DNA from: a virus
Length of the DNA: 20,718 bases
IMG/VR virus record: IMGVR_UViG_3300008111_000443
Span: 1 to 20,718 of that record
Direction: 5' to 3' (one strand)
Shown: positions 7,883-10,662 of the stretch, piece after piece
Numbering within the stretch: the first letter of the stretch is position 1
How the letters are laid out: every line of letters starts with the position of its first letter
Translations under genes and position numbers: made by a program
The notes under the pieces: generated by a model
The model's database searches: none
What the model saw: only the letters and a program-made list of their open reading frames with translations
Told to the model about the DNA's origin: nothing

Positions 7883-8467
7883 CTATGTAGTGAGAACCTC
7901 ACTGGTAACGTATGCGGTGATGGGTTTACCCAAGGCATCTCCCAAGTGCTGTGCGATTGCATCAATGTTGGCAGGGGTCAGTACATCCCCTATAAAGTTA
8001 CCGCCCTTGTATCCAAACCGCTTTATTGTTCCTTTGGATGCAATCTTTTTGGCGATTGCTAATGCCATAGATTTACGGGCTTCCAAAACTGATTGTGTGC
8101 TTTGCTCTTTTGATTTACGGACAGGAATACCCTTTGCGCTTATCCATTCCTCAATAGATGCAATCGGTGGCCGTTTGCCTTTTCTCCTGCCTTGGTCTGC
8201 CCAAAAATAGTAATTTGCCATTTCGATTGGCACGGTCACTCCGTTGGCATTTTCCTGAAAGTCACCGATGTTGACACTTGACCGCAGGTTTTTGGTAGCG
8301 ACCAATTTCTTTTCTGTAATGTCTTGCCGCAACGCATCCACCAATCTTTGAGCCACACCCAAAACAAGGTCAGCAAGTAATGAATTAGGCATGGGGCTGT
8401 CAGGTATGCCGAACTTATCCAGCAATCCTTTGTTGATTGCGTCCAGTTGCGCTTTGGTAATGTTCAC
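7883..8467 (-). CDS. HK97 gp10-like tail completion/head-tail joining protein, 194 aa
   Basis: The protein has the layout of gp10-like proteins: an N-terminal helix, then a beta segment VTVPIEMANYYFWADQGRRKGKRPP with the conserved tyrosines and basic patch, then helices (MALAIAKKIASKGTIKRFGYKGGNFIGDVL). This family closes the tail tube at the head-proximal end or helps attach tail to head. The start is GTG at 8467 (read as Met), placed directly after motif copy D. Length fits the family. The gene is flanked by a hairpin on each side, so it may be expressed as its own segment of the late operon. Confidence 0.68.
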   Translation of the reverse strand: MNITKAQLDAINKGLLDKFGIPDSPMPNSLLADLVLGVAQRLVDALRQDITEKKLVATKNLRSSVNIGDFQENANGVTVPIEMANYYFWADQGRRKGKRPPIASIEEWISAKGIPVRKSKEQSTQSVLEARKSMALAIAKKIASKGTIKRFGYKGGNFIGDVLTPANIDAIAQHLGDALGKPITAYVTSEVLTT

Positions 8468-8481
8468 ACTTATAAAAGTAG
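8468..8481 (-). promoter_or_regulatory. Shared start-site motif, copy D
   Basis: On the minus strand this reads CTACTTTTATAAGT and directly abuts the GTG start at 8467. It supports that non-ATG start. Confidence 0.45.
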
Positions 8482-8508
8482 AAACCCCGACACAATGGCC
8501 GGGGCTTC
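8481..8508 (-). terminator. GC-rich hairpin, likely terminator or processing site
   Basis: On the minus strand GAAGCCCCG pairs with CGGGGTTTC (nine pairs including one G-T) around a ten-base loop, followed by TACTTTTATAAG. It lies between the tRNA-like sequence and the gp10-like gene. The T tract is interrupted, so termination may be partial. Confidence 0.45.
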
Positions 8509-8594
8509 ATCCGTAGGGGATTTGAACTCCTATCCTCACCAATGGTGAGATGTTACCCTTTGCCGGTATTCATTCCCGGTTACACCAACGGTAT
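8507..8594 (-). tRNA. Possible degenerate tRNA; identity not assigned
   Basis: On the minus strand there is a T-arm-like element (AGGAG, loop TTCAAAT, CCCCT; one A-C mismatch). It is followed by a 3' acceptor-like ACGGATG that pairs at four positions with ATACCGT at 8594-8588. A D-arm-like GTGT...ATAC encloses a loop with AA and GGG at about the right positions, and a perfect six-pair arm CTCACC-ATT-GGTGAG could be a long variable arm. A canonical anticodon arm cannot be drawn: the best is a four-pair stem around GGCAAAG, lacking U33. It may be a decayed tRNA, an unusual one, or a tRNA mimic. It occupies most of the 134-base gap between two late genes. Confidence 0.3.
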
Positions 8595-8601
8595 TTCAAA
8601 C

Positions 8602-8919
8602 TTACAACATCTCTTGCAATAAAGCAATCTTGTAAACGGTACTATCTTTGGCCGACTTTGCCGATTGCGCTGCGGTGTTCAGCCGTTCTGTCCTTGCCCT
8701 GTCTTTTTCTGTTTGAAAACTGACTGCGTTTAAGAACTCAACCAGCGGCATATTCAAAAAGAAATCCCATTTGGTGCGGTCACCGCCTGCGATGTTGTCC
8801 ACCATTTTCAACCAACTGATGGCTGGTCTGTCTTTTCTTCTGCTATCTTCTTCAACTTCTCCACTTCCTGCTCTAAATATACTTGGGTAGCTTCGAGTAA
8901 TTCCGGCAAGCATAGAGAA
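8602..8919 (-). CDS. Tail assembly chaperone, C-terminal (T-like) part, reached by -1 frameshift
   Basis: This frame continues from the T9 run after a one-base backward slip: TTC at 8919, TCT, then ATG at 8913, 105 codons to the stop at 8602. It overlaps the end of the upstream chaperone ORF by about 110 bases. After the overlap it reads like a genuine protein (SWLKMVDNIAGGDRTKWDFF, then LVEFLNAVSFQTEKDR), a pattern similar to proteins that follow tail chaperones in related phages. Fused with the first 161 residues of the upstream ORF it would give about 266 residues. Independent starts at the ATG at 8913 or at an internal ATG (MVDN) are alternatives. Confidence 0.65.
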   Translation of the reverse strand, partial: FSMLAGITRSYPSIFRAGSGEVEEDSRRKDRPAISWLKMVDNIAGGDRTKWDFFLNMPLVEFLNAVSFQTEKDRARTERLNTAAQSAKSAKDSTVYKIALLQEML

Positions 8920-9401: not shown

Positions 9402-9478
9402 TTTACTATTTTATACCACAAATGTATGGCTGTTGTTTTGATTATTTCGTATATGGCTATGGTCAGGAGTAGTTTCAT
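9398..9478 (-). CDS. Coupled 26-residue hydrophobic peptide
   Basis: An 81-base ORF fills the gap between the large terminase and the tail chaperone. Its ATG overlaps the terminase stop as ATGA (9478-9475). Its own TGA overlaps the chaperone ATG as ATGA (9401-9398). The peptide starts MKLLLTIAIYEIIK and ends HLWYKIVK: mostly hydrophobic with basic ends, able to form one short membrane-associated helix. Double ATGA overlap is the normal junction style in this genome, which argues that it is translated. The function is unknown; it could serve only to pass ribosomes from terminase to chaperone. Confidence 0.55.
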   Translation of the reverse strand: MKLLLTIAIYEIIKTTAIHLWYKIVK

Positions 9479-10662
9479 ATTATAACAAACACCCCTTTCT
9501 TATTCTTTTGGCTGCAATACCGGGCAAGTGCCAACGCACATACAGCGTCATCGTGCAACCCTGCTGGTGCAGAATAACGCAACCCTGTTGCCGTGTGTTC
9601 AAATTCAAAGTTACGCATCTCGTCTGCGATTATGCCTTCGGGAAACTTAATCAACCCAGCGTGAACATCTGCGGTAAGTTGTTCCATCATCTGTTGCTTT
9701 GATACCGATGTGAACTTAACCCCAACAGAACGTGGGCAATGCCGTTGTATCTTCTCCACAATCGGGTCACCTACTCCAGTGCTATCTATGGCCGCAGGGG
9801 TGTTGCCTACTACCCGAATGATGTGCTGTTCTGTCTGCGCCCAGTCCTTTTGAAAGCGGTCAAAGTAGCACACCCGGTATTCGGAGTCAAGGCCAATGAT
9901 GACCGTGTAGTCACTATACTTTGCAAGGTCAATGCCGTACCACTCAACAGGTGCGGTAGAAATCGGTGCAATGCACTGCGAAATGTAGCTCAATCCAAAT
10001 GGGTTGCTGCCATCTTCGGTTGGCTCTGCAAGATACAGCTCACTGAATATGTGCTGTGGCAAGTCACGTTTTGCCTGTTCAACTTCTTCAAGTTTCAGGA
10101 CACCAGCATTGACTGCGTCATAAGCGGTTATTTTAAAAAACCCATAGTTCGGCTCACCCATCCTTGCCCGTTCTGATAGCTTATATCCCCAGTTCTTTTT
10201 ACCCTTTACGTTACCGATTAGCTTGCATTTGCCTTCGGTCTTGGTCAGGGTGGAACGCAGCGCAAACCATGCATCTTCCCTAGCCCGTGTGAACTCATCA
10301 AACACCGCTGCATATACATCGTCACCATAAAGGTTGTCGGGCTTGTCTGCCGATTTAAATTCAATGATGCCCCCGGTGGGTAGGGTTAAACGCAACTTGC
10401 TTTCATTGACCTTAAAAAAGTCACGCACGGTCACTTGGTTACGCATTCGCCTGAATGCAATTTCCGCCTGTTGATACACAGGTGCAACCCACCACACCGA
10501 TTGATTTTCTTTTAGCTTCAACGCCTGTTCAAATAGCCAAATGATATGACTTGCTGTCTTGCCAACTTTCGTTGCAGCAGCGGTCACGGTGTACCTATCA
10601 GGGCTATCTAAAATTGCCCGTTGGTAATCCGTTACGAATGGCCGGGTGTAGCTAATGTGCAT
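9475..10662 (-). CDS. terL: Terminase large subunit (packaging ATPase and nuclease), 395 aa
   Basis: This is the motor that pumps DNA into the prohead and cuts concatemers. The ATPase domain has a Walker A variant AATKVGKT at residues 29-36, a Walker B VFDEF with Asp122-Glu123, and a coupling motif LIGNVKG. The RNase H-like nuclease domain has the acidic residues Asp245 (GIDLAKYSDY), Asp293 (AIDSTG) and Asp371-Asp372 (GLHDDAV). The length is on the short side for the family, but both domains look complete. The start at 10662 lies inside the end of the glycosyltransferase gene (31-base overlap), and the stop is coupled to a 26-residue ORF. Confidence 0.93.
   Translation of the reverse strand: MHISYTRPFVTDYQRAILDSPDRYTVTAAATKVGKTASHIIWLFEQALKLKENQSVWWVAPVYQQAEIAFRRMRNQVTVRDFFKVNESKLRLTLPTGGIIEFKSADKPDNLYGDDVYAAVFDEFTRAREDAWFALRSTLTKTEGKCKLIGNVKGKKNWGYKLSERARMGEPNYGFFKITAYDAVNAGVLKLEEVEQAKRDLPQHIFSELYLAEPTEDGSNPFGLSYISQCIAPISTAPVEWYGIDLAKYSDYTVIIGLDSEYRVCYFDRFQKDWAQTEQHIIRVVGNTPAAIDSTGVGDPIVEKIQRHCPRSVGVKFTSVSKQQMMEQLTADVHAGLIKFPEGIIADEMRNFEFEHTATGLRYSAPAGLHDDAVCALALARYCSQKNKKGVFVII

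Follow-up and report, generated by a model that had tools for sequence, protein, structure and literature searches.

T2 is a large, well-preserved family of tRNA-shaped RNAs in phages from environmental samples; most members cannot read codons, and the phages seem to put the tRNA shape to some other use. Its hallmark is a 4-bp hairpin within the D loop that presents the loop NAAURAAUA. A copy of T2 is found in the window, i.e., the whole stretch of DNA analysed here (20,718 nt; IMG/VR virus record IMGVR_UViG_3300008111_000443, positions 1 to 20,718), as an 87-nt tRNA-shaped element at 8508-8594 on the minus strand, without an anticodon loop. The original prediction of a mimic tRNA at this place was right in that the element is tRNA-shaped, and covariation in distant relatives extends to its acceptor, to its D and T stems, and to the hairpin in the D loop.

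The T2 Copy in the Window

The gene for the terminase large subunit (TerL, 9475-10662) lies upstream of the element, which is followed by tape-measure and head-protease-like genes. Its parts and surroundings are as follows.

8508..8594, minus strand, 5′ end at 8594: T2 tRNA-like RNA element (weak full-length match to RF00005, score with model R1, covariation in relatives)
8588..8594, minus strand: acceptor stem, 5′ side, opposite 8508-8514 (the window copy forms 4 of the 7 pairs)
8508..8514, minus strand: 3′ side of the acceptor stem, pairs with 8588-8594 (alignment of 74 sequences)
8582..8585, minus strand: 5′ strand of the D stem, GUGU, pairs with 8550-8553 (alignment of 74 sequences)
8550..8553, minus strand: 3′ strand of the D stem, ACAU (alignment of 74 sequences)
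8563..8579, minus strand: hairpin inserted in the D loop, CCGG / loop GAAUGAAUA (8567-8575) / CCGG (covariation; loop-free scan)
8535..8549, minus strand: arm at the anticodon position, 6-bp stem 8544-8549/8535-8540 with a 3-nt loop and no anticodon (sequence)
8515..8531, minus strand: T arm, stem 8527-8531/8515-8519, loop UUCAAAU (covariation)
8481..8508, minus strand: GC-rich terminator-like 11-bp hairpin directly behind the element, then a T-rich tract
8597..8604, minus strand: TAAGTTTG, which fits TAnnTTTG, 10 nt before the element (sequence match)
8625..8627, minus strand: TTG, a possible −33 element 20 nt before TAAGTTTG (read from the sequence)
8602..8913, minus strand: 103-aa ORF upstream of the element, which served to locate the syntenic gap in relatives
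7883..8467, minus strand: 194-aa ORF downstream of the element (ORF list)

All parts named in the original prediction can be read from the minus strand. Of the seven acceptor positions, the inner four are paired (CCGU/ACGG), and the T stem contains one A-C mismatch. The GC-rich hairpin follows at once, as had been described; the relatives L013, L014, and L025 harbor other hairpin sequences at this place. The lack of a normal anticodon arm is borne out by the 3-nt loop, and the absence of an anticodon loop is a trait of the T2 family. Two assignments have shifted. The CCGG/CCGG stem regarded as D-arm-like is present but is inserted within the loop of a second stem, 8582-8585/8550-8553, which is the true D stem. 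The “perfect possible variable arm” exists as a six-pair stem, but it occupies the position of the anticodon arm.

ARAGORN detects no tRNA in the window, and no Rfam family, tmRNA included, matches the window at gathering scores. A search in relaxed mode, which had been proposed as a check, yields a match to RF00005 (tRNA) that covers 8508-8594 at full length with 14.3 bits, below the gathering score of 29. Its E-value is 2.3 for 4227 families over 221 bp, or, divided, approximately 5e-4 for that one family. Further low-scoring Rfam hits within the window (ycf2, CRISPR-DR31, BSnc120, and others) were taken as chance. Single-sequence folding with the hairpin is modestly better than that of shuffled sequences (z −2.06, 7/200) and would prove nothing alone; conservation in relatives decides. 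Model R1 scores the window copy at 80.5 bits (E 8.3e-15), the window sequence being among the 48 from which R1 was built.

Conservation and Covariation of T2

Two patterns served to gather T2 loci from IMG/VR contigs of up to 318 kb, one describing the D-loop hairpin (114 stretches) and the other a looser version of it (at least 120 stretches). All loci together contained 290 pattern places, 61 of which were dropped because the T loop was missing or the hit was cut by the locus end. Among the matches listed, there are at least 115 distinct copies with different acceptors; all 115 form at least 4 of the 7 acceptor pairs and 97 form all 7, the acceptor being outside the selection. The collecting patterns fix GTAA, and two of the three scans also fix the loop, such that the invariance of GTAA (and that of the loop outside the loop-free scan) is by construction. 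In searches with R1, T2 members score 57-93 bits, while other matches, largely ordinary tRNAs and T1 elements (see below), reach at most 48.7 bits (E-values are rough).

Covariation was assessed on a MAFFT alignment of 74 non-redundant sequences. Conservation of the stems in relatives had been named in advance as a check of the element, and the stems are kept: 98.3% of the cells are paired as opposed to 71.5% in shuffled controls. Changes on both sides of a pair occur in 427 cells, compared with a shuffled mean of 114.7, and none of 500 shuffles reaches 427. When the partner is slid by one column, pairing falls to approximately 40%. Both-side changes are seen somewhere in 16 of the 20 pairs, although this count is a poor discriminator since 27 of 500 shuffles also reach 16.

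All seven acceptor pairs vary on both sides (98.1% of cells paired), as do all four pairs of the D-loop hairpin (99.7%) and four of the five pairs of the T arm (99.5%). The second pair of the D stem switches between U-A and C-G (36 vs 36), and the first is unpaired in 10 of 74 sequences. An earlier alignment of 48 sequences (A1) gives the same picture with the exception of the arm at the anticodon position, which is 57.8% paired. The poor pairing of this arm in A1 is due to its sliding in the alignment, and it was therefore scored per sequence.

The D-Loop Hairpin and Its Loop

For a scan independent of the loop, the 20 bases after TTGGYGTAA were left free, returning 110 stretches with 78 distinct hits. 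An independent tRNA-like test, which asked for six or more of the seven acceptor pairs plus four or more of the five T-stem pairs, was passed by 52 of the 78 and failed by 26. The loop NAAURAAUA is present in 50 of the 52 tRNA-like hits and in none of the 26 others, and the hairpin is paired at 4/4 positions in 49 of the 52. The loop variants among the 50 are GAATGAATA (29), GAATAAATA (15), AAATGAATA (4), TAATAAATA (1), and CAATGAATA (1); two of the 52 hits (L594 and L599) look accidental. The conservation of the loop is thus not an artefact of selection. A more distant member with another loop was found by R1 in L197.

The Anticodon Position and Decoding Capacity

T2 shares the body of a tRNA, with a 7-bp acceptor (of which the window copy forms 4 pairs), a T arm, and a D arm with GG in the D loop. 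The window copy also has the features that define the family, i.e., the 4-bp D-loop hairpin, the loop NAAURAAUA, and the tRNA fold. A stem of at least 5 bp can form at the anticodon position in 68 of the 74 sequences (mean of 200 shuffles 7.4, maximum 14). The loops it closes are mostly 2-6 nt long, some with an inserted hairpin. An arm of 5 bp with a 7-nt loop can form in 17 of the 74, and the arm of a decoding tRNA, in which this loop also has U33, in only 4, the window copy with its 3-nt loop not being one of them. In an earlier set of 63 elements, 19 could form the 5-bp/7-nt arm, about five of them with U33 as judged by eye.

The discriminator is A in 33, T in 15, G in 13, and C in 13 of the 74 sequences, and CCA is encoded in 2. 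A free discriminator together with a freely varying acceptor argues against charging by one synthetase or one aminoacyl identity. Of 41 T2 copies, 15 receive an ARAGORN tRNA call at their start, under 10 different isotype/anticodon labels (Leu, Glu, Phe, Pyl, Gln, Val, or undetermined).

Copy Number, Genomic Context, and Hosts

Twenty records chosen as T2 carriers, all of them fragments (19 virus records of 17.6-318 kb and one MAG), were searched whole with R1. Each contains exactly one hit of at least 57 bits, and the next hit anywhere reaches 48.3 bits; G003, G007, and G009 among them carry the same T2 copy. T2 is thus apparently single-copy.

The neighbors of T2 are diverse. Ten scanned flanking ORFs comprise a methylase, a helicase, two PDDEXK proteins, an ABC transporter, a cellulase, an exonuclease, a DUF6943 protein, and two without a family. 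Because the flanking genes differ, T2 probably acts in trans. Of 57 testable copies, 23 lie tightly between two same-strand ORFs, at most 60 nt from both an ORF end and an ORF start, compared with 9.7% of 1140 places drawn at random from these loci. Other copies reside within tRNA arrays.

TAnnTTTG is the −7 consensus of Bacteroidota. Of 67 distinct regions upstream of T2, 12 have it at −10, every one of them from the lineage of the window, where it reads TAAGTTTG or TAACTTTG, and 7 others have it elsewhere within 60 nt. On the basis of sequence matches, the window copy appears to have promoter-like and terminator-like elements of its own. Behind T2 in the gap of L004, L006, L019, L024, and L088, there is a possible small RNA gene with a promoter-like TATATTTG, ends GCGATG...CATCGC, a variable middle, and a strong terminator-like hairpin.

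A pattern scan of genome contigs gave 14 places, 3 of which are real T2 copies, located near chromosomal-type genes on Bacteroidota MAG contigs titled Lishizhenia, Chitinophaga, and Flavobacteriales (L416:2002-2093, L419:2129-2220, and L424:4475-4566). In all three, T2 lies 8 nt from a convergent 139-aa ORF (DUF6943 in L416, where tested) and has a 249-aa ORF upstream, for which no family was found in L416. Among 395 drawn Bacteroidota genomes, stricter filters retrieved T2 in one, the seed MAG itself. The host assignment of T2 rests on those MAGs and on the promoter type.

Searches against named phages with few queries suggest, provisionally, that T2 is absent from them. A BLAST search with the window stretch found 14 records, in each of which the match covers 8-9% of the query, almost always at the terminator-like hairpin. 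With one T2 element as the query, there were 276 matching records, but no match extended over 80% of that query, and in the 40 of the 276 matches listed, the 3′ (T-arm) half alone was matched. A 37-nt T2 core gave one partial match, and a search of plasmids gave one partial match inside a protein gene. Absence elsewhere is weak evidence because the contigs are fragmentary.

A search for a partner gene found TROVE/Ro60 in 2 of 18 T2 records and RtcB in none, naming no general partner. The TROVE (Ro60-like) genes lie approximately 4.6 kb (L314, G004) and 2.7 kb (L193, G005) from T2. The L193 record also contains a tmRNA match. A YrlA match in L193 was rejected as an artefact that spans two neighboring tRNA-like stretches.

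T3, a Second tRNA-Shaped RNA in the Same Gap

Relatives of the window were fetched from IMG/VR by TerL (the best 80 of at least 599) and by the 194-aa protein (33), giving 42 distinct gaps between the flanking ORFs. T2 occupies 17 of these, T3 occupies 13, both occur together in none, and neither is present in 12. The T3 copies in this gap are those of L031-L033, L035-L042, L044, L057, L058, L060, and L067.

T3 is another tRNA-like RNA, harboring a hexamer that varies yet is palindromic in 25 of 25 loci (L235-L259), which were collected with a pattern that left these six bases free. The hexamers are TCCGGA (9), GCGCGC (6), AGGCCT (4), GTCGAC (4), AGCGCT (1), and GTGCAC (1). Since the loci share descent, the 25 do not count as independent events, and a fairer count is that of the six different palindromes. 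A relaxed T3 pattern gave 44 further unrelated loci, which serve as a control; the hexamer is palindromic in one of them. Among 13 distinct T3 sequences, the hexamer is self-complementary in all 13, and each of its three positions shows both-side changes; outside the hexamer, pairing reaches 97% (89.3% when shuffled), and 8 of 26 pairs change on both sides. A search of 189 sources with model R2 recovered T3 in the seed lineage alone; beside two seed control loci, the maximum score was 41.2 bits.

Neighboring bases cannot pair in one chain, which suggests pairing between two copies. The palindrome thus points to a candidate homodimer (kissing) contact; alternatively, it could be a twofold DNA site.

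A further recurring RNA-like unit is seen in the gap of L035, L038, L041, L061, L062, and L066. It consists of a promoter-like box, TATATTTG, followed by CAGTAAGGC or a similar sequence and then a stretch around GCGGTGATGCGCGAG...CCTAAATAGTC, with a terminator-like hairpin in some. The unit has no Rfam match at gathering scores.

T1, a Scaffold with Hypervariable Inserts

T1 was collected with a pattern for its 3′ half (at least 120 stretches, L115-L234; also L068). Among the matches listed, 135 elements have a recognisable 5′ half, 129 of them distinct; elements lacking such a half were dropped. Some pattern hits are normal tRNAs. The T1 scaffold is found in 11 of the 42 distinct gaps, in 6 with T2 and in 1 with T3; the loci with T1 in the gap are L001, L017, L019, L023, L024, L026, L047-L049, L052, and L060. 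Up to five pattern matches occur in one locus (L125), and the T1 copies of L017 and L026 exceed the Rfam gathering score for tRNA with 37.7 and 36.1 bits.

The T1 scaffold is near-constant, the acceptor AGTCAGG/CCTGACT being fixed by the pattern, and hypervariable inserts replace the anticodon arm. Among the 129 distinct elements listed, the inserts measure 2-140 nt with a median of 50 (boundaries are approximate). H-type pseudoknots with two 5-bp stems are possible in 29 of the 129 (mean of 100 base shuffles 14.6, maximum 22), and 6-nt palindromes are depleted in the listed inserts (63 vs 106). TAnnTTTG occurs within 60 nt in 26 of 134 distinct T1 upstream regions among the matches listed, mostly at −11 to −19, compared with 104 of 2680 random windows.

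One insert type shared between phages is found in L117, in L152, and in the element after T2 in L265. It contains ATCACCTCC or CACCTCC, which we take to resemble the anti-Shine-Dalgarno end of 16S rRNA. In the gap of L024, translation of the T1 insert by eye is protein-like with one stop (KISAVLYNELKTYSKRNGERDL*NEALNNF), which may reflect capture of a coding sequence.

Proposed Function of T2 and Alternatives

It seems reasonably likely, and is our preferred reading, that the element encodes a small tRNA-shaped RNA that does not decode, is processed by the host, and presents its D-loop hairpin to a partner in trans, as a decoy or an adaptor. T2 would be transcribed with its operon or, in the lineage of the window, probably from its own promoter, and the adjacent hairpin would end the transcript. 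The RNA would fold into a normal tRNA elbow (acceptor, T arm, and GG-containing D loop) and be trimmed by the RNase P and RNase Z of the host. The conserved D-loop hairpin (NAAURAAUA) would then stick out from the elbow and contact its partner, either a protein or an RNA. As T2 cannot decode, this hairpin most likely does the job.

The competing proposal that T2 is mRNA punctuation, i.e., that RNase P and RNase Z excise it to separate the flanking mRNAs and leave an inert RNA, is somewhat unlikely but predicts that many copies lie between ORFs, as they do. It accounts for the tight intergenic placement of 23 of the 57 copies and for that of the window copy between TerL-side genes and the next late ORFs. 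However, it leaves unexplained the conserved D-loop hairpin and its loop, the single strong hit per searched record, the copies in tRNA arrays, and the terminator-like hairpin directly behind the window copy. A processing signal and an RNA that recruits host tRNA enzymes, both offered in the original prediction, are possible, with the intergenic placement on one side and, on the other, the copies in tRNA arrays and the promoter-like and terminator-like elements of the window copy. A decoy or adaptor explains the loop, the copy number, and the varied context, although TAnnTTTG at −10 is known in the lineage of the window only, the acceptor of the window copy has just 4 of 7 pairs, and 4 of the 74 sequences are readable with an anticodon arm. 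These four, together with the ARAGORN calls, could also suggest an unusual tRNA active in translation (rare decoding or frameshifting), which is improbable given that the other 70 have no such loop and that discriminator and acceptor are unconstrained. The scarcity of encoded CCA says little in this respect, as phage tRNAs are often without CCA according to PMC10879173.

The remaining two explanations have less still to recommend them. The original prediction had also offered a decayed tRNA, which would make the element a functionless relic. The four-pair acceptor of the window copy and its weak RF00005 score fit such decay, but the strong compensatory change across distant relatives rules it out, T2 is present in 17 of the 42 distinct syntenic gaps, and the loss of the anticodon loop is a family trait; a relic is therefore very improbable. 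The least probable is a tmRNA-like tag read from the AUG of the D-loop hairpin, where the window reads AUG AAU ACC GGC AAA GGG UAA. The loop NAAUAAAUA, which has no AUG, occurs in 16 of the 52 tRNA-like hits of the loop-free scan; the AUG is thus not kept, and the tag ORF is excluded. In addition, the distance to the stop varies, and the window contains no tmRNA match.

Relation to Known RNAs

T2 shares with phage tRNAs (RF00005) the acceptor, the D stem with GG in the D loop, the T arm with its loop, and a frequent location in tRNA arrays. It differs in that it mostly has no anticodon loop, carries an extra covarying hairpin in the D loop, has a free discriminator, and gives one strong hit per searched record. 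The tRNA-like half of tmRNA (RF00023) also has no anticodon arm; however, T2 has no kept tag ORF and no long insert between its arms, measures approximately 87 nt, and has no gathering match. The bacterial Y RNA YrlA (RF02553) is a tRNA mimic with D and T arms as well, in which, according to its model line, the T arm precedes the D arm, whereas T2 has the normal order, D then T. YrlA is not among the listed Rfam matches of the window at gathering or relaxed thresholds. The Ro60-type (TROVE) gene is present in 2 of 18 T2 records, and the host could supply one.

In PMC12286853, GOLLD and ROOL are described as phage RNAs near tRNA islands, and palindrome switching in the loops of OLE and GOLLD supports symmetric kissing contacts. 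The palindrome argument is alike but applies here to T3 and not to T2, and the ornate RNAs, as presented there, are much longer than T2 and T3 and not tRNA-shaped. Theta ribozymes, self-cleaving RNAs found beside phage tRNAs, are proposed in PMC10879173 to process the 3′ trailers of these tRNAs, and approximately 90% have predicted Bacteroidota hosts. They are likewise RNA elements tied to phage tRNAs, while T2 is itself tRNA-shaped. Searches of an open-access library listed no phage tRNA-like RNA of the T2 kind. The novelty of T2 is thus provisional, resting on these searches and on a comparison of the window and a selection of loci with Rfam 15.

Implications

A broader reading, which is offered tentatively and which we hold to be possible rather than probable, is that phages, at least some of those of Bacteroidota, may build various non-coding effectors on the tRNA body, which would be a general chassis for them. 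T2, T3, and T1 would replace one another at a single site next to the terminase genes and work in trans, e.g., as decoys for host factors by which tRNA is handled or attacked. The designs would be a D-loop hairpin in T2, an anticodon-loop insert with a switching palindrome (kissing homodimer) in T3, and hypervariable structured inserts in T1.

The T3 palindrome would provide a simple handle on an RNA homodimer. T2 would add a non-decoding class to the tRNA-shaped RNAs of phages, one that a tRNA finder misses or mislabels; given the ARAGORN labels, some annotated phage tRNAs may be T2 RNAs. It also makes testable what a phage gains from a tRNA that does not decode.
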